NCBI GenBank assembly: GCA_919902985.1
Contig: CAKKSC010000011.1
Span: forward strand, 1-60,155
DNA: 60,155 bases
Direction of reading: 5' to 3'
DNA from: Desulfuromonadales bacterium
GTDB taxonomy: Bacteria > Desulfobacterota > JAENJC01
Below are positions 5,408-34,591 of this stretch, piece by piece (the stretch's first letter is position 1; each line of letters starts with the position of its first letter). Below the pieces are notes generated by a model, which saw only the letters and a program-made list of their open reading frames with translations, had not been told where the DNA came from and did not search any database. The position numbers and the translations under genes are program-made.

Positions 5408-5464
5408 ATATCAAGTGAGCTTTCGTTAACCTAAATAAGTAGCTGTTTGAAAGCAAATTGGTAT
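5408..5464 (+). repeat. family A palindromic repeat, full copy
   Basis: The left arm is ATATCAAGTGAGCTTTCGT and the right arm is TTTGAAAGCAAATTGGTAT. A few substitutions separate it from the copy at 34017-34072, and the middle (TAACCT..ATAAGTAGCTG) is nearly the same. It lies in the leader of rpiB, between divergent genes. Confidence 0.8.
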
Positions 5465-5478
5465 AAAAATGAGGTGAT

Positions 5479-5584: not shown

Positions 5585-6478
5585 ATGGAATCTATTGACA
5601 GGATAATGGCTCATTACGGTTTTACATCCAGAGACGCAGAAAACCTCAGGCAACTGCACCCGATTATGGAAAGGTTCAGGGAGCGGTTTCCAATAGAGTT
5701 TTATAACTATATAAAGAACTTTGAGGACACCCCAAGGTTTCTAAAAAATGAAGAAACCATCAAGAGACATCAGGACGGACTCAAAGTCTGGTTCATGAAC
5801 CTGTTTTCCGGAGAATACAATAACCAATATCTGAAAGACCTTGAACATATCGGTTCGGCCCATGTCAAGATAAACCTGAGCGCCCATTACGTTAACGCAG
5901 CTATGCATTTTGTTAAATGGTTCTGCGGCAAGATATTAAGGGAAGAGATAAGCGATGAAAAGGAGAGGCTCTATCTATGGGGCTCTATCGAGAAGATGCT
6001 GGACATAAACCTTGACGCATTGACAAGTTCGTATATAGAAGAGGAGAGGAAGCATTACTTCATCTCACAGAGCGTAGAGTCGCATCTTATTGATTTTGCA
6101 AGGAGGTTCAGTTATGGCCTGAACCTCTTTCTTGTGTTGGGTCTCGTATTGATGGGGATCACAGTCGTTGGCCTGTTTGTCTACGATGTGGCCCATATTT
6201 TTGCCGGTGATATAGAAAAGGGGCTTCTTGGCACCCTCGGCTCCCTTCTGATGCTGTGGGTTGTGATCGAGCTTGTTGATACCGAGGTAAAGCACCTGAG
6301 GGGCGGAAAGTTCGCCATAAAGATATTTATAGGGGTCGCCCTTGTTGCAGTTATAAGGAAGCTTCTTGTAATAATGCTCAAGGCCGAGGCTATAGAGGCC
6401 CAATTTACGCTAATTGCAGCCATTGCAGTACTTGGCGCGGTTTACTGGCTTATATCTCGGATCGAAGAACCAAAATAA
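5585..6478 (+). CDS. protoglobin-domain / PsiE-type membrane fusion protein
   Basis: The protein has 297 residues in two parts. Residues 1 to about 165 look like a protoglobin or globin-coupled-sensor domain, with His93 in EHIGSAHVKINLSAHY at the usual proximal haem position. Residues about 175-297 hold four hydrophobic segments that resemble the PsiE (phosphate-starvation-inducible) membrane family, including IELVDTEVKHLRGG and IRKLLVIML. There is no methyl-accepting, cyclase or kinase output, so the membrane part itself must be the output or anchor. AGGAGG precedes the ATG. It lies upstream, in the same direction, of a haem-copper operon and could sense O2, NO or CO for it. The domain calls are moderately firm; the role is inference. 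Confidence 0.75.
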   Translation: MESIDRIMAHYGFTSRDAENLRQLHPIMERFRERFPIEFYNYIKNFEDTPRFLKNEETIKRHQDGLKVWFMNLFSGEYNNQYLKDLEHIGSAHVKINLSAHYVNAAMHFVKWFCGKILREEISDEKERLYLWGSIEKMLDINLDALTSSYIEEERKHYFISQSVESHLIDFARRFSYGLNLFLVLGLVLMGITVVGLFVYDVAHIFAGDIEKGLLGTLGSLLMLWVVIELVDTEVKHLRGGKFAIKIFIGVALVAVIRKLLVIMLKAEAIEAQFTLIAAIAVLGAVYWLISRIEEPK

Positions 6479-6605
6479 CCAGGTTCTTAAGGCTTTTCTG
6501 TGGGGAAACCAATCCCCCTTTTATAACCTGTTTTTTCAATAACGACTTCAGACATAAACCTTTTGGTTTCCGTCTTATTAGTCACCCACCGTATTATTAT
6601 GGGAT

Positions 6606-6619
6606 ATGATTCATGTCAT
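6606..6619. promoter_or_regulatory. possible CRP/FNR-family operator
   Basis: The sequence ATGATTCATGTCAT has TGA-N6-TCA symmetry, the spacing of CRP/FNR-superfamily sites, although the flanking T/A of a full FNR box is missing. It is centred about 81 bases before the predicted start of the respiratory operon, a position used by activators. A short site like this can occur by chance. Confidence 0.3.
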
Positions 6620-6658
6620 AGTTAGGTGCGCTTTTATGAGATATCGTCCATCCGTAAG

Positions 6659-6687
6659 TTGACAGTCTTGTTGTCATAAGGTATGTT
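6659..6687 (+). promoter_or_regulatory. sigma70-type promoter of the haem-copper operon
   Basis: TTGACA (6659-6664) and TATGTT (6682-6687) are 17 bp apart. A TGACA-N7-TGTCA inverted repeat overlaps the -35 and spacer, which would suit a repressor. The leader to 6851 is about 155 bases. The rest of the 372-base gap (6479-6850) holds a weak GGGGA/TCCCC hairpin just after the upstream gene and the leader peptide described separately. Confidence 0.55.
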
Positions 6688-6753
6688 TTTGCATATTTAC
6701 TTACACGGTCGAATTAAAGTGAAGCAGGGGAATAATAAGACTTCACAGGAGTT

Positions 6754-6783
6754 ATGGTTCCAGATAAATTTGATAGGAGGTGA
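6754..6783 (+). other. possible nine-codon leader peptide
   Basis: An ATG preceded by CAGGAG opens a nine-residue frame (MVPDKFDRR) that ends TGA inside a second AGGAGGTGA motif. It lies in the leader of the haem-copper operon. It could be a leader peptide or chance. Confidence 0.2.
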
Positions 6784-6850
6784 CTCGCAGGTAAGTTATT
6801 CTTGAGGGGGTGTTACACTTTTTTGGGTCATTAAACAAGGAGGTAAAGTT

Positions 6851-7081
6851 ATGGATGAACAGAAAGCATTATCTTGGCAGGCGCTCTATGACAATATGTG
6901 GGGGATATTTGCATTAGGGATACTGGTTCCAACCTTAATCTATACTGTCTGGGGACTGATAGAAATAGCAACCCTCCCTCAGATGGACGTGAGCAAGGCT
7001 ATGGAGGCATTAAGGCCGGCAGAAGTACAGCAGGCCGCACCGGCAGAGATACCGGCGACCGAAGCTGCTCCAGTGCATTAA
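6851..7081 (+). CDS. small single-span membrane protein, putative oxidoreductase subunit
   Basis: This 76-residue protein has one membrane helix (about residues 16-41) and an Ala/Pro/Glu-rich C-terminal tail. AAGGAGG precedes the ATG. It is the first gene of an operon with the CuA subunit II (36 bases downstream) and subunit I, so it is most simply an accessory subunit of that enzyme. I do not recognise a named family. No haem-binding motif is visible. Confidence 0.75.
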   Translation: MDEQKALSWQALYDNMWGIFALGILVPTLIYTVWGLIEIATLPQMDVSKAMEALRPAEVQQAAPAEIPATEAAPVH

Positions 7082-7117
7082 GATTTATTCAAAGCATAAA
7101 ATATATGGAGGTATGAT

Positions 7118-7669
7118 ATGAGTATATCGGTTGAAAGGACATGGTGGAGGCCTCTTGACAGGGAGGAAAAGATCTGGGTCACCATAGCCCTTATATGGTG
7201 TCTCGGCACTTTTTTTATGATGCCTGTGTGGCATGTGATAGCGAAGCAGAATACGCCCAATGAAAGTTACAGGGTCTCTGTTGACGATTTTGAGAAGATT
7301 GTTGTTGCCTTTAATGAAAAATATAAGGTACGTGAAGAGAGCGGAGTTCCGGTCGTCCATCCACCTGCAGGAAGTGATATTTATCTGGCAGGGACAGGGG
7401 TCTGGCAGTGGTCCTCAATCCTTGAGCTTGAGGCTGGCAAGCAGTACAGACTTCACATCTCATCCATTAAGGGCGGCGGCACTGAGGCATGGCAGCATGG
7501 TTTCTCGATCGTTTCCGCAAAGTTTAATGTAAACTTTCAGATCGTTCCCGGATATGACAATGTATTAACAGTTACACCAACTGAGGCCGGTGAATATGGT
7601 CTGATCTGTAACGAATTCTGTGGCATTGGTCATCACCTGATGGCCAGTAAGATAATTGTGAAAGGATAG
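7118..7669 (+). CDS. CuA-binding subunit II of a haem-copper oxidoreductase
   Basis: The protein has 183 residues with one N-terminal membrane helix (about 20-41) and a periplasmic cupredoxin domain. All CuA ligands are present in canonical spacing: His127 in WQHGFS, then Cys164, Glu166, Cys168, His172 and Met175 in CNEFCGIGHHLM. The subunit therefore takes electrons from a soluble donor such as a cytochrome c. The single helix is like the short subunit II of B-family oxidases. GGAGG precedes the ATG, and subunit I follows after 11 bases. Confidence 0.93.
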   Translation: MSISVERTWWRPLDREEKIWVTIALIWCLGTFFMMPVWHVIAKQNTPNESYRVSVDDFEKIVVAFNEKYKVREESGVPVVHPPAGSDIYLAGTGVWQWSSILELEAGKQYRLHISSIKGGGTEAWQHGFSIVSAKFNVNFQIVPGYDNVLTVTPTEAGEYGLICNEFCGIGHHLMASKIIVKG

Positions 7670-7680
7670 GGGGTGCTTAA

Positions 7681-9189
7681 ATGGCTGAACAGTTTAGAAC
7701 GTGTCCTACGACAGGACTAAAGGTACACCTTCCGGCGGAGGCCCTTATAAAGGTCAATGCTGTGGCTGCCGTCGTTTGTCTCCTTGTTGGAGGTATTGCG
7801 GCATTGCTGGTTCTTCTTACCCGCTGGCCTGCAGTTCATCTTCTTAATGAAGAATGGTTTTACAGATTCCTGACGGCCCATGCGCTGGACATGCTCATCG
7901 CATGGATCATATTCTTTGAGGTGGCAGCGCTCTATTTCGGCAGTACAGTGTTGCTTAACAACAGGCTGCCTGCTCCGAAAGTAGGTTGGGTCGCATTCAT
8001 CCTGATGGTGCTTGGCGGGGCTTTAATTAACTGGCAGGTTCTTGTTGGACAGGCTACGGTTGCATTTACATCATATGTGCCGTTAAAGGCAAGCCCACTG
8101 TATTACCTTGGGATAATACTTTTTGCAGTGGGTGCACTTACTGCCGTATTCCTCTTCTTTGCAGCCCTTGTTGTGGCGAAGAAGGAAAAGACCTACGAGG
8201 GATCGCTGCCAATAGTGACCTTTGGCCTCATGTGTGCCGCAACCATTGCAACTTTCACTCTTCTGCACGGCGCAGCTTTTTACATCCCGACCTTCCTTTG
8301 GTCTGCCGGTATTTTGCCTAACCTTGATCCGATGATGTACAGGCTTGCATTCTGGGCACTCGGTCATGCATCCCAGCAGATCAATGTGTGCGCCATGGTT
8401 GCCGTGTGGTACCTTATTGCCACACTGACCACGGGGGCAAAGCCGCTCAACGAGAAGCTCTGCAGGACTGCATTCCTTCTCTATGTTCTCTTCATTAACG
8501 TTGCGTCAGAGCACCATCTCCTCACTGACCCGGCCTTAAGCATCTGGCATAAGATAGCGAACACCGGCTACGTCATGCATATGGCAGTTCTCGCCAGCAT
8601 GATCCACGCCTTTGCTATCCCTGCGATGATCGAAGTGGCGCAGAGGAAGAAAGGATTCAGCAAGGGCTGGTTTGAGTGGCTGAAGAAGGCTCCCTGGGGC
8701 AACCCGGCATTTGCATCCATGTTTATCTCCCTCATAGGCTTTGGTTTTGTCGGTGGGATCACCGGTGTGACCTTTGGTAATATGCAGATCAGTATGATCA
8801 GGCACAACACCTGGAGCATCACCGGTCACTTCCACGGAACTGTTGTTCTTGGCACAACCCTGGCCTTTATGGGTATCACGTACTACATAGTACCGCTGAT
8901 ATTCAGAAGGCAGATATTCAGCGAGACAATGGCAAAGTTGTCCCCATATTTCTTTGGAGGAGGGGTCTTCCTCTTTGCCAACGCCATGATGTTTGCCGGA
9001 GGTTATGGTATACCAAGGAGACACTGGGACGTTACCTTTGCTGGCGCTCAGTTCCCATTCCAGTTTGACCCGACAGCATTCTTCTTTATAGCGCTTACCG
9101 GGTTGGGCGGACTGCTTGCCATCATAGGAGGGGCCCTTTACGTATTGAACACAACGGCCTCTGTATTTATTGGTAAGAAGATTCAATAA
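7681..9189 (+). CDS. haem-copper oxidoreductase subunit I lacking the active-site tyrosine
   Basis: The protein has 502 residues with about twelve membrane helices. The six metal-binding histidines are present: His67 and His385 for low-spin haem, His383 for the active-site haem, and His229, His278 and His279 for the active-site metal. The helix-6 motif is GHASQQ, so the residue four after His229 is Gln233. Oxygen reductases of the A and B families have the cross-linked tyrosine there (HPEVY, HPxVY). Glu277 directly precedes the histidine pair, an acidic residue where oxidases usually have a neutral one. These traits fit the tyrosine-less, CuA-linked families proposed as nitric oxide reductases (eNOR, sNOR, gNOR, nNOR) better than an oxygen reductase. 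Subunit identity is firm; the reaction is inference. Confidence 0.9.
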   Translation: MAEQFRTCPTTGLKVHLPAEALIKVNAVAAVVCLLVGGIAALLVLLTRWPAVHLLNEEWFYRFLTAHALDMLIAWIIFFEVAALYFGSTVLLNNRLPAPKVGWVAFILMVLGGALINWQVLVGQATVAFTSYVPLKASPLYYLGIILFAVGALTAVFLFFAALVVAKKEKTYEGSLPIVTFGLMCAATIATFTLLHGAAFYIPTFLWSAGILPNLDPMMYRLAFWALGHASQQINVCAMVAVWYLIATLTTGAKPLNEKLCRTAFLLYVLFINVASEHHLLTDPALSIWHKIANTGYVMHMAVLASMIHAFAIPAMIEVAQRKKGFSKGWFEWLKKAPWGNPAFASMFISLIGFGFVGGITGVTFGNMQISMIRHNTWSITGHFHGTVVLGTTLAFMGITYYIVPLIFRRQIFSETMAKLSPYFFGGGVFLFANAMMFAGGYGIPRRHWDVTFAGAQFPFQFDPTAFFFIALTGLGGLLAIIGGALYVLNTTASVFIGKKIQ

Positions 9190-9195
9190 TCAACT

Positions 9196-9218
9196 GGGGC
9201 GGGCTTTAAACCCGCCCC
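9196..9218 (+). repeat. GC-rich hairpin between subunit I and the small subunit
   Basis: Arms GGGGCGGG and CCCGCCCC flank a seven-base loop. No T-run follows, so it is not a simple terminator. It sits between the large subunit and a very small gene, where it could stabilise or attenuate the transcript. Confidence 0.6.
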
Positions 9219-9240
9219 TATAATAACATGGGAGGTCGTC

Positions 9241-9369
9241 ATGAGTGATCATAAAGAGGGATTTGAGGCGCCTGGGACATTTGTAATAGCCCTTGTATTC
9301 CTTGCTGTTTTCGTAGTCGTTTACGTTGCTAACTTCAAGCTTCTTTCCAACATCTGGTATATCCGTTAA
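9241..9369 (+). CDS. 42-residue membrane peptide, subunit IIa-like
   Basis: The gene has a strong GGGAGG ribosome site seven bases before ATG. It encodes 42 residues: a short charged N-terminus (MSDHKEGFEAPG), one hydrophobic helix (about 13-31) and a C-terminus ending NIWYIR. Size and layout resemble the single-helix subunit IIa (CoxIIa) of B-family oxidases. It directly follows subunit I and precedes a strong terminator, so it is the last gene of the operon. The assignment to the enzyme rests on position and shape. Confidence 0.75.
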   Translation: MSDHKEGFEAPGTFVIALVFLAVFVVVYVANFKLLSNIWYIR

Positions 9370-9398
9370 GACCTGATGCGTGAGGGTTGATTGTGTGA

Positions 9399-9430
9399 AA
9401 GGGGTATGCGGCGCATACCCCTTTTTTTCT
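9399..9430 (+). terminator. rho-independent terminator of the haem-copper operon
   Basis: An 11-bp stem (AAGGGGTATGC with its complement) closes a three-base loop and is followed by a run of T. It ends the operon after the small subunit. Confidence 0.9.
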
Positions 9431-9440
9431 TGTTTGGTTT

Positions 9441-9496
9441 AGACCAAGTTGCTTTCAAACATCTACTATTAAGCCTAATGAAAGCTTACTTGGTAT
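9441..9496 (-). repeat. family A palindromic repeat, full copy, opposite orientation
   Basis: Reversed, the arms read ATACCAAGTAAGCTTTCAT and TTTGAAAGCAACTTGGTCT. The middle (AATAGTAGATG) matches the half-copy at 30149-30177. It lies between the operon terminator and the SCO gene. Confidence 0.85.
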
Positions 9497-9518
9497 TAAA
9501 TCAGAAGGGACATCCTTG

Positions 9519-10346
9519 ATGAAGAGATTTTTTTTATTGTCATTTTTTTTTCTTTATTTTCAAGCCTCTTACGCTGCTGAACCGCCTAAGTCCGAGCAAA
9601 AGACCTCTGTCGTAAAAAGCGAGGACGTCATCGGCCATAAGATCGGCGAATACAGGCTCATAGACCATAACGGGAAGGAGTTCAGCACCTCCGAATTCGC
9701 GGGAAAACCTTTTGTGGTCAGCTTCATATACACTTCCTGCATACATATCTGCCCAACCATTACACTCAGCCTTTCCAATGTTGTCAAAGAAAAAACAGGG
9801 AGGCTTGGGAAGGACTTTAATATACTGACGGTAAGCTTCGACCCTGACAAGGACACCCCGCAGAAGCTGAAGGAGTTTGGCTCAAACTTCACGAAGGACT
9901 TTGCCCACTGGCGGTTTACCACTGCCGGTAAAGAAACCATAGATAGGATGACCAGGGACTTCGGTTTCTTCTATAAGAAAGAGGGCGATACCTATCAGCA
10001 TATAAATATGGTCTCTGTTGTTGATGCAAACGGCCAGATCCTTAACCATATATATGGAATAGATTTCAAACCTGACCAGGTACTGGGCCCCATTTATCAC
10101 CCTGACAAGTTCAAGAAAGTCGACAAGGCCGGGTTTGCCGGACTTCTGGAAAAAGTGACCCTCTTCTGCTACAAATACGATCCGGCGACAAACAGCTATA
10201 GGCTTGACTATCCACTGCTGTTTCAAATTGCATTGGAAGGAACGGTCCTGTTTTCAATACTGTTCTTTGTCTGGAAAAAGGAGATTATCGGATTCTTTTC
10301 GAGATTCAGAAGGAAGAAGGTCGATGACCCTGTTTTACCTTTATAA
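9519..10346 (+). CDS. SCO1/SenC-type copper chaperone
   Basis: This 275-residue protein has a signal peptide (about 1-20), a thioredoxin-fold SCO domain and a C-terminal membrane helix (about 238-253). Copper ligands are Cys74 and Cys78 in TSCIHICPT and His161 in TYQHINM. SCO proteins insert copper into CuA of subunit II, which matches the CuA gene upstream. I chose ATG 9519 over the preceding TTG at 9516; GAAGGGA lies at suitable spacing. A terminator and a repeat separate it from the operon, so it has its own expression. Confidence 0.92.
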   Translation: MKRFFLLSFFFLYFQASYAAEPPKSEQKTSVVKSEDVIGHKIGEYRLIDHNGKEFSTSEFAGKPFVVSFIYTSCIHICPTITLSLSNVVKEKTGRLGKDFNILTVSFDPDKDTPQKLKEFGSNFTKDFAHWRFTTAGKETIDRMTRDFGFFYKKEGDTYQHINMVSVVDANGQILNHIYGIDFKPDQVLGPIYHPDKFKKVDKAGFAGLLEKVTLFCYKYDPATNSYRLDYPLLFQIALEGTVLFSILFFVWKKEIIGFFSRFRRKKVDDPVLPL

Positions 10347-24594: not shown

Positions 24595-24610
24595 CAAAAT
24601 CGCTTCATTT

Positions 24611-24656
24611 ATACCAAGTTGCTTTCAAACATTAAATTATAGAAAGCTTACTTGAC
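24611..24656 (-). repeat. family A palindromic repeat, shortened copy
   Basis: It begins with a perfect ATACCAAGTTGCTTTCAAA and ends with GAAAGCTTACTTG; the last bases of the left arm (GGTAT) are replaced and the middle is shorter. It lies between the cyclophilin gene and the small membrane protein gene. Confidence 0.75.
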
Positions 24657-26364: not shown

Positions 26365-26556
26365 ATGATAACCGAAAACACAACGATTGAAGAGGTTTTA
26401 ACCAGATATGCCAAGGCAAATGAGATCTTTTTAAAATATGGCCTGGACTGTAGCGGATGTCAGATAGCAGAGTTTGAGAGCATCGGCCATGCCTGCAAGG
26501 TCTACGGAATAAAGCTTGAGGCGCTGCTGAAAGAGTTGAATGAAGCGGTTTGCTAA
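26365..26556 (+). CDS. DUF1858 domain protein
   Basis: This 63-residue protein matches DUF1858: the N-terminal TTIEEVLTRYAKANEIFLKY and a CxxC in LDCSGCQIAEFESI, with another cysteine in HACKVYGI. The family is thought to be redox-related and is often linked to hybrid-cluster or sulphur enzymes; no such gene is nearby. Its TAA overlaps the stop of the convergent DksA-like gene by a few bases. Confidence 0.85.
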   Translation: MITENTTIEEVLTRYAKANEIFLKYGLDCSGCQIAEFESIGHACKVYGIKLEALLKELNEAVC

Positions 26557-27350
26557 GCCTCTTCCTCTTCCGAGTAATTGATGTTCCTGAAAACCCCTTC
26601 TGCCTCAAACTTCTTCTGCCTGGCCTCCTGCCTTTCCTCTTCAGCCTTGCAGTTTATACATAGCCTTGTAAAAGGCTGCGCCTTGATCCTTGCCGGAGCT
26701 ATCCTTTCGCCGCAGCTCTCACAAACTCCATATTCCCCAGTATCTATCCTATGGAGGGCATCGTCTATCTCTATCAGTTTCTGTCTGTCCCTGTCGCCAA
26801 GAAGAAGTGAAAGCTCCCGATCCCTCTCTGAACTGGCATCATCGTAGATATCACCTACGTCTTTTTTGAGAGGATCACTCTCCCTTACCCTGTATTCTAT
26901 TATCTCTTTTAAAAGGTTTTCCCGGTTCTTTAGAAGAATAGCCTTCATCTCTTTCCCCGGAGCGGCTGGCCTTTGGGATTCAGTTTTCACCCTCAATGTT
27001 CCCCCTGTTTTCTTTGTTTCTTCCTGCAATACAATAACACCCTTTGGAGCCGGGACCGGCTTGACTACCTTTACTGGAATGATCTTGGACACACTTATTG
27101 TCTGTGCAGCTTTCTTAACTGGAGCAGCCTTCTTGACTGGAGCAGCCTTCTTGACTGGAGCAGCCTTGTTAACTGGAGCAGCCTTCTTAACTGGAGCAGC
27201 TTTCTTAACTGGAGCAGCCTTCTTAACTGGAGCAGCCTTCTTAACTGGAGCAGCCTTCTTGACTGGAGCAGCCTTCTTAACTGGAGCAGCCTTAGTCTTC
27301 ACTGCAACCTTCTTTGCTTGCACTTTTTTTGGCTGTACTTTTTTGGCCAT
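26553..27350 (-). CDS. DksA/TraR zinc-finger protein with histone H1-like repeat tail
   Basis: The protein has 265 residues. The N-terminus is very basic and holds ten tandem hexapeptides APVKKA (one is APVNKA) at residues 22-81, resembling eukaryotic histone H1 tails. After a Pro-rich linker comes a DksA/TraR domain: a coiled-coil from about 130 with ELSLLLGDRDRQKLIEIDDA, then a four-cysteine zinc finger (Cys210, 213, 231, 234; CESCGE and CINCKA). The core suggests binding in the RNA polymerase secondary channel; the tail would bind DNA or RNA. A near-consensus promoter precedes it. The domain call is firm; the combined role is inference. Confidence 0.9.
   Translation of the reverse strand: MAKKVQPKKVQAKKVAVKTKAAPVKKAAPVKKAAPVKKAAPVKKAAPVKKAAPVKKAAPVNKAAPVKKAAPVKKAAPVKKAAQTISVSKIIPVKVVKPVPAPKGVIVLQEETKKTGGTLRVKTESQRPAAPGKEMKAILLKNRENLLKEIIEYRVRESDPLKKDVGDIYDDASSERDRELSLLLGDRDRQKLIEIDDALHRIDTGEYGVCESCGERIAPARIKAQPFTRLCINCKAEEERQEARQKKFEAEGVFRNINYSEEEEA
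27108..27287 (-). repeat. ten tandem 18-bp units within the DksA-like gene
   Basis: The unit on the plus strand is TTCTTAACTGGAGCAGCC with few substitutions, repeated about ten times. Each unit encodes APVKKA. The near-identity at DNA level points to recent expansion, and unit gain or loss would keep the frame. Confidence 0.9.
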
Positions 27351-30117: not shown

Positions 30118-30135
30118 CAGAGTTTGTCTATACTT

Positions 30136-30645
30136 TTATTTTGACTCAATAGTAGATGTTTGAAAGCAACTTGGTATAAAAATAATTTTCGCTTCTATCC
30201 GGTTATTGGAAAAATTCAGGAGTGCAAAGCTGTTGTTGGAGTTGTTGGTAATGATACAGCCGGGGTTTAAGAAGAGGATATCTCCTATGCGCTGCTTCAT
30301 TGGGAAATGGGTATGGCCGAACAAGGCGATGTGGGCGTCTTCAAATATGGCCTTTTCTATAAGGAGATCAATCCCATGTTTGACCTTGTAGAGGTCTCCA
30401 TGGGTGATGAATGTCCTTATTCCGTTGAGCTGTAAGGTCTTCTCCCTGTCAGCCCACGGCTCAGAATTCAAGTCGGTATTTCCTGAGACGCCATCAACAG
30501 GGATACCGGCTTTATTAGCTATTTGCAGGGCGTCGTTATAATGATCTCCAAGATGGATCAATCTGTCAATATTTCCAATATGTTTCAGAACATTCACGGC
30601 AAGTTGCACATTCCCGTGGGTGTCGGACATTACGGCTATCTTCAT
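30136..30645 (-). CDS. YfcE/MJ0936-type metallophosphodiesterase with repeat-encoded tail
   Basis: This 169-residue phosphoesterase has all metal motifs: SDTHGN, HLGDH, GNTD, THGD and GHTH. Proteins of this family cleave phosphodiesters in vitro; the substrate here is unknown. It follows the oxidoreductase gene by 7 bases and ends the lpx operon. Its last 13 residues (IPSCFQTSTIESK) are translated from a family A repeat arm, so the natural C-terminus was extended by the insertion. The family normally ends near the preceding strand (IEAKIIF). Confidence 0.9.
   Translation of the reverse strand: MKIAVMSDTHGNVQLAVNVLKHIGNIDRLIHLGDHYNDALQIANKAGIPVDGVSGNTDLNSEPWADREKTLQLNGIRTFITHGDLYKVKHGIDLLIEKAIFEDAHIALFGHTHFPMKQRIGDILFLNPGCIITNNSNNSFALLNFSNNRIEAKIIFIPSCFQTSTIESK
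30149..30177 (+). repeat. family A repeat, right half, inside a coding end
   Basis: The half-copy AATAGTAGATG plus TTTGAAAGCAACTTGGTAT matches the middle and right arm of the copy at 9441-9496. It lies within the last codons of the phosphodiesterase gene on the opposite strand. Confidence 0.8.
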
Positions 30646-33974: not shown

Positions 33975-34016
33975 TTATATCCATGTAAGGCTGCCCTGAT
34001 CAAAGGGTCGCCCATA

Positions 34017-34072
34017 ATACCAAGTAAGCTTTCATTAACCTGATAAGTAGCTGTTTGAAAGCAACTTGGTAT
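34017..34072 (+). repeat. family A palindromic repeat, best full copy
   Basis: Arms ATACCAAGTAAGCTTTCAT and TTTGAAAGCAACTTGGTAT bound a 56-bp element. The arms pair except for the same two-base/one-base asymmetry (AAG versus TG) seen in other copies. It lies between ompH and lpxD, three bases from the ompH stop. Confidence 0.9.
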
Positions 34073-34075
34073 AAA

Positions 34076-34591
34076 TCATTTCTTTGTCTTGTTGTATGCT
34101 TTTATCACCTTGTCCGTTATATCAACCCCTTCTGCTGCAAAAAGGACAAAGGCATCACCCTTTTCCAGGATAATGGTGTAGTCTTCATCTGTCCCCATCT
34201 TCTTTATTACATCCTTCAGGTCCTTGATTATCTTCTTGGTCAACTCCGCGTCTTTCTGCTGGAGCTCCTCCTGAGAGTCTTTGGCAAACCTCTGTGCATC
34301 CTTGATCTTCTGCTGATATGTCTTTTCTTTTTCCCCCCTGGCATCAGGGGTCAGAAGTCCCTTCTGTTTTTCAAGCTCCTCCTGAAGCTTCTTAAGCTCG
34401 CTCTGCTTTTCATCCAAGGCCTTTTGAAGCTCTTCGACCCTTTTGTTAAAAGCGGCCTTGGCCTCTTTTCCTTGATCTGATTCATTTAAGGACTTCTGAA
34501 GGTCTATGTACCCGATCTTTACCTGGTCAGCCCCGAAGGCAATCCCTCCTGCATAAAGAAGCATCACAGCAGCTAACAGAATCTTTTTCAT
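34076..34591 (-). CDS. OmpH/Skp-family periplasmic chaperone
   Basis: This 171-residue protein has a signal peptide (about 1-21) and a long charged coiled-coil (about 35-130, rich in K, E and Q). Skp-type chaperones hold unfolded outer-membrane proteins before delivery to BamA, whose gene lies directly upstream. The strand IGYIDLQKSLNES and the C-terminal strands ILEKGDAFVLFAAEGVDITD fit the family body domain. Confidence 0.92.
   Translation of the reverse strand: MKKILLAAVMLLYAGGIAFGADQVKIGYIDLQKSLNESDQGKEAKAAFNKRVEELQKALDEKQSELKKLQEELEKQKGLLTPDARGEKEKTYQQKIKDAQRFAKDSQEELQQKDAELTKKIIKDLKDVIKKMGTDEDYTIILEKGDAFVLFAAEGVDITDKVIKAYNKTKK

Follow-up and report, generated by a model that had tools for sequence, protein, structure and literature searches.

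A probable eNOR-type nitric oxide reductase with glutamine in place of the active-site tyrosine in a Desulfuromonadales bacterium

We analysed a stretch of 60,155 nucleotides (here called the window) from the genome of a Desulfuromonadales bacterium, in which the genes at 6851-9369 probably encode an eNOR-type nitric oxide (NO) reductase, a reading to which we give a probability of about 85% on sequence grounds. All of the parts named in an earlier note on this DNA were found where it had placed them (Table 1), and Gln233 of subunit I, the family alignment and phylogenetic trees support its central proposal, namely that they include a CuA haem-copper enzyme without the tyrosine, probably one of the newer NO reductases. 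Since glutamine occupies the tyrosine position, the newer NO reductase candidates can be narrowed to eNOR.

Table 1 Features of the haem-copper gene cluster and its neighbours, in window positions.
Feature	Position	Strand	Evidence or remark
Protoglobin-PsiE fusion	5585..6478	+	Pfam 83.5 and 74.9 bits; judged to lie outside the enzyme system
76-aa one-helix small subunit with Pro/Ala-rich tail	6851..7081	+	Homologues at 53/80 loci
Subunit II, membrane-anchored cupredoxin with complete CuA site	7118..7669	+	CuA ligands; CoxB-like C-terminal match
Subunit I, catalytic haem-copper subunit, Gln233 for active-site Tyr	7681..9189	+	COX1 195 bits
Gln233 codon, position of the oxygen-reductase tyrosine	8377..8379	+	Gln in 87/87 family sequences
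Glu277 codon, subclade mark	8509..8511	+	With His290 in 31/31
His290 codon, partner of Glu277	8548..8550	+	Trp in 54/56 non-subclade sequences
42-aa ORF, detached C-terminal transmembrane helix of subunit I	9241..9369	+	Matches within relatives' long subunit I ORFs
Terminator-like hairpin, 13 pairs plus T tail, 3' of the enzyme genes	9397..9425	+	Pattern match only
SCO1/SenC copper chaperone	9516..10346	+	Pfam PF02630 89 bits; CxxxC motif

Subunit I is 502 residues long and retains all six of the metal-binding histidines ascribed to it (H67, H229, H278, H279, H383 and H385). The reported helix-VI motif GHASQQ reads G-H229-A-S-Q-Q233, with Q233 aligning on the tyrosine of ba3-type enzymes, and E277 does abut the active-site histidine pair, lying directly before H278-H279. 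Scanning one genome for each species, we recovered related enzymes with the same motif at 80 loci across many phyla (53-77% identity, far beyond chance), to which a plasmid search added relatives from Thermus, Thermomicrobium and Defluviimonas (48-56% identity), giving a family set of 87 Gln-type subunit I sequences. Across all 87, the alignment shows Gln233, Q232, N235, Y244, H278, H279, S306 and H309 to be invariant. In maximum-likelihood trees a branch with 100/100 support separates these sequences from the Tyr-bearing B-family oxidases; this tree, run as a check on the earlier proposal, places subunit I outside the oxygen-reductase family and leaves the proposal standing.

A glutamine in the active site is the published mark of eNOR, while sNOR, gNOR, bNOR, cNOR and qNOR carry Asn, Asp, Asn, Glu and Glu, respectively, at the tyrosine position (PMC8756737, Table A4). 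The window's enzyme has none of these latter residues, having Gln233 instead; a gene for a cupredoxin-type subunit II adjoins that of subunit I, and subunit I is related to the B-family while falling outside its oxygen reductases. By sequence, it is thus probably a member of the recently recognised eNOR family, an assignment based on Gln233, on subunit II and on its clade rather than on a comparison with the characterised Rhodothermus marinus eNOR.

In nine Gln-type enzymes, Lys stands at position 385 (GHFK), where the HFH motif has its second His; as that His is expected to bind the low-spin haem axially, His/Lys ligation of this haem is suggested for these proteins. Seven are from Aquificota (L074, L075, L077, L080, L081, L085 and L091) and two from Thermus thermophilus plasmids (L094 and L108).

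Among solved structures, ba3-type oxidases are closest to subunit I in both fold and sequence: an AlphaFold2 model built from 32 family sequences (pLDDT 85.7, pTM 0.89) gave 7deg and 1xme as its best PDB matches, with TMq values of 0.86-0.89. Relatives are automatically annotated as cytochrome oxidases, and haem-copper NO reductases can show side activity with O2, all of which would fit a microaerobic B-family oxygen reductase using another residue, or none, in place of the tyrosine. However, the Tyr four residues past the helix-VI His that is a trait of B-family oxygen reductases is Gln233 here and is missing in 87/87 sequences. We found no conserved alternative tyrosine either, because the helix-VIII tyrosine of most relatives (Y300) is His300 in the window's protein, which rules it out as a catalytic substitute. 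Together with the 100/100 separation of the Gln-type clade from Tyr-type B-family enzymes and the NirS, NirK and NosZ context described below, this makes an oxygen reductase very unlikely, and we retain NO reduction as the probable activity. Standard profiles nevertheless label the subunit I gene as a cytochrome oxidase, so that such genomes can be counted among the oxygen respirers while their N2O production is overlooked.

The earlier note had also pointed to the lack of the K-channel lysine motif PTGIK. The motif is indeed absent, but as PTGIK is an A-family motif, the missing lysine is little informative. A single conserved proton channel is a trait of eNOR; here, positions of the B-type proton path are kept, namely E17 of subunit II (90/90) and S306 and Y244 of subunit I (87/87), whilst position 309 has changed from T to H.

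Subunit II carries the CuA motif C164-N-E-F-C168-G-I-G-H172-H-L-M175 plus H127, with E166 also in the site, so that the CuA centre is complete as claimed; like E17, residues H127, C164, C168, H172 and M175 are invariant in the 90 aligned sequences. Two small subunits had been proposed as well, and while both ORFs exist, the 42-aa one is not an independent subunit. It matches inside the long subunit I ORFs (about 550-610 aa) of many relatives and stands apart as a short ORF of its own in the window's subclade, and we therefore read it as the split-off last helix of subunit I; this subunit is shorter than 550 aa in all 31 subclade sequences and longer in 44 of the 56 others. Homologues of the 76-aa ORF lie upstream of subunit II where tabulated, and the ORF has no match in Pfam or NCBIfam. 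The ba3 oxidases have a short helix subunit, which it resembles. The SCO protein, with homologues at 69 of the 80 relatives' loci, is probably a helper of CuA assembly and the likely copper chaperone of the enzyme.

The window also contains a dispersed, roughly 60-bp repeat whose ends are inverted (ATACCAAG...CTTGGTAT), at 63-108, 1063-1125, 5423-5468, 30119-30181 and 34014-34078, with inverted copies at 9435-9498 and 24607-24640, one copy thus lying between the 42-aa ORF and SCO. Its core is present 44 times in the window's genome and 89 and 15 times in two genomes of the same genus, with none in the relative G018 and 0 in a reversed control. An array of 18-bp direct repeats (27070-27339) lies within a minus-strand ORF (26553-27350) whose protein has a repeated six-residue unit. 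FNR/DNR-type boxes are at chance level in the window (37 matches against 37 expected).

Upstream of the enzyme genes, on the same strand and separated from them by 372 bp, the protoglobin-PsiE gene proved to be a real fusion. Protoglobins bind O2, CO and NO, and with such a neighbour the protein could be imagined to sense NO or O2 and to control or serve the enzyme within one operon, as the earlier note had suggested. Synteny led us to reject this haem-sensor operon: among 198 genomes of the phylum, 28 have protoglobin-PsiE matches, none of the 80 relatives' enzyme loci has one, and three genomes that carry both genes (G018, G056 and G080) have them on different contigs. In the 79%-complete genome of a sister species in the same genus (G002), cysteine desulfurase/IscU-like genes come after the fusion, and a gene for the enzyme was not found. 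The protein also has no DNA-binding output domain, and promoter-like sites between the fusion and the enzyme genes, a weaker point, argue in the same direction. We consider a joint operon barely credible, and a chance neighbourhood is the best reading of their adjacency here.

The surroundings of the relatives' enzymes offer a link to NO. NirS-type proteins, 52-61% identical to the Cytochrom_D1 protein of G018, are encoded at 7 of the 80 loci (L040, L050, L056, L075, L076, L077 and L091), and NirK over its curated cut-off at three (L025, where it is directly upstream, L059 and L069); L040 and L025 belong to the window's own subclade. At most about half a case would be expected by chance, given loci averaging 14 kb and if each 4-Mb genome is taken to hold a single copy of nirS and of nirK. 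As some of the loci are close kin, these cases count as about seven lineages and not ten. Thermus loci encode Rrf2, DUF542 and a NirK-like copper protein below the NirK cut-off. In Ardenticatena, eNOR is reported to share an operon with NirK (PMC4653789).

The window's own genome (G000; 2.13 Mb, 95% complete) has genes for NarG, NarH and NarI, each above its cut-off, and for a lactonase-type N2O reductase of clade III (L-NosZ), which at 700.9 bits just passes the cut-off of 700. NirS, NirK and NrfA had no convincing match in this genome, the Cytochrom_D1 match on C43 reaching just 32.8 bits as compared to more than 280 bits in the relatives G001, G018, G056 and G080. The lack of an NO-making nitrite reductase among these matches counts against the NO reductase reading. 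The Gln-type enzyme is the sole complete haem-copper enzyme of the genome, because the other COX1 matches are a CuB-less homologue and two partial proteins. A bd-like protein is encoded near the Nar genes, a further counterpoint, as the organism may thus make some use of O2. The presence of L-NosZ and the Gln-type enzyme in one genome marks the organism as a candidate N2O-consuming partial denitrifier. L-NosZ (C4:61320-63061; L184:4320-6062) lies about 16 kb from the Nar operon (C4:77442-88212; L185:442-11212) on one contig, and this operon includes a NarK-like transporter.

Taken together, these data lead us to infer the following route. A periplasmic donor would deliver electrons to CuA of subunit II, from where the low-spin haem (H67/H385) would relay them to the site formed by the high-spin haem (H383) and CuB (H229, H278, H279), where two NO would be converted to N2O and water. 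With the tyrosine lost to Gln233, the enzyme would have no extra source of an electron and a proton for O2 splitting, and protons would probably arrive via a B-type path from Glu17 of subunit II. In this genome, such an enzyme would take its place between NarGHI and L-NosZ, or would scavenge NO that comes from outside.

The CuB-less homologue of the window's genome is a haem-copper oxidase-like protein with a helix VI of about GGGHILQFAN (C41:21093-22412; L149:7085-8479). Homologues lie near the Gln-type enzyme at 27 of the 80 loci, in many phyla (L014-L019, L022, L027, L038, L045, L046, L050, L051, L054-L056, L061, L063, L065, L066, L068, L069, L071, L079, L083, L088 and L092). They keep the haem ligands (equivalents of H67, H383 and H385) and the helix-VI His and are without the helix-VII His-His pair, so they should hold two haems and no normal CuB; a literature search with the terms used returned no description of such a protein. 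A cytochrome b - ferredoxin - FlpD fusion, a possible electron-transfer partner, is encoded beside the CuB-less homologue in the window's genome (L149:9339-11369) and near the Gln-type enzyme in G018 (L187:7738-9798). In G018, genes for a four-helix COX1-like fragment (133-149 aa), a cupin and an Mrp-like protein (L187:16394-19999) also lie beside the enzyme operon, a set found together with a lone PsiE gene on another contig of the window's genome (C47:4326-7034; L150).

Within the family, E277 is present in 31 of the 87 sequences, always with H290 (31/31), whilst A277 goes with W290 in 54/54. The E277 sequences form one cleanly defined clade of single origin, with 96/91 support when positions 277, 290 and 300 are masked, and 27 of its 31 members have H300 rather than Y300. 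Members come from deltaproteobacterial, Nitrospirota and Nitrospinota genomes, several of them from groundwater. As the change occurred once on the tree, the perfect pairing counts as one event and not as repeated evidence. Glu277 was rejected as a general catalytic residue, being Ala in 54/87. By helical-wheel reasoning, a residue directly before both CuB histidines should point away from CuB, and E277 is expected to do so; it could be in contact with H290. That this clade is a functionally distinct subtype of NO reductase, in which a charged pair beside a CuB ligand provides its own proton route or redox tuning, perhaps working with the CuB-less second haem-copper protein, we put forward as a doubtful proposal. 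The sharp Glu277-His290 split does offer a simple mutagenesis test of proton handling in tyrosine-less haem-copper enzymes.

The distinctness of this subclade, and the fact that no residue mark of nNOR was found in the literature searched, could also be taken to mean that the enzyme belongs to another tyrosine-less NO reductase family, such as nNOR, or that the subclade is a family of its own, with NO reduction as the chemistry in either case. Against this, Gln is reported for eNOR only (PMC8756737, Table A4), and the tree places the subclade together with the rest of the Gln-type sequences, the window's protein being 48-65% identical to those outside the subclade, Thermus and Thermomicrobium included. 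We therefore judge a different family unlikely and keep the enzyme in eNOR; of the earlier suggestion that it could be a new variant, the Glu277-His290 subclade gives slight support, and the enzyme otherwise fits the known family.

Compared to described eNOR (PMC8756737, PMC4653789), the window's enzyme shares the Gln at the tyrosine position, a cupredoxin/CuA subunit II directly upstream, the B-family relation and, at some of its relatives' loci, nitrite reductase neighbours. It differs, in a comparison that does not extend directly to the characterised enzyme, in having Glu277-His290 rather than Ala-Trp and its last transmembrane helix as a separate 42-aa ORF. With B-family oxygen reductases (Thermus ba3, 1xme; Aquifex-type, 7deg) it has in common the fold, the six His ligands, a CuA subunit II with a Glu near its start, and Ser306 and Tyr244 of the B-type proton path; unlike them, it has no catalytic tyrosine, carries His309 in place of the ba3 Thr and falls in a separate clade. 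Like sNOR, gNOR, bNOR, cNOR and qNOR, it would be a haem-copper NO reductase without the tyrosine, but one in which Gln stands where those families have Asn, Asp, Asn, Glu and Glu.
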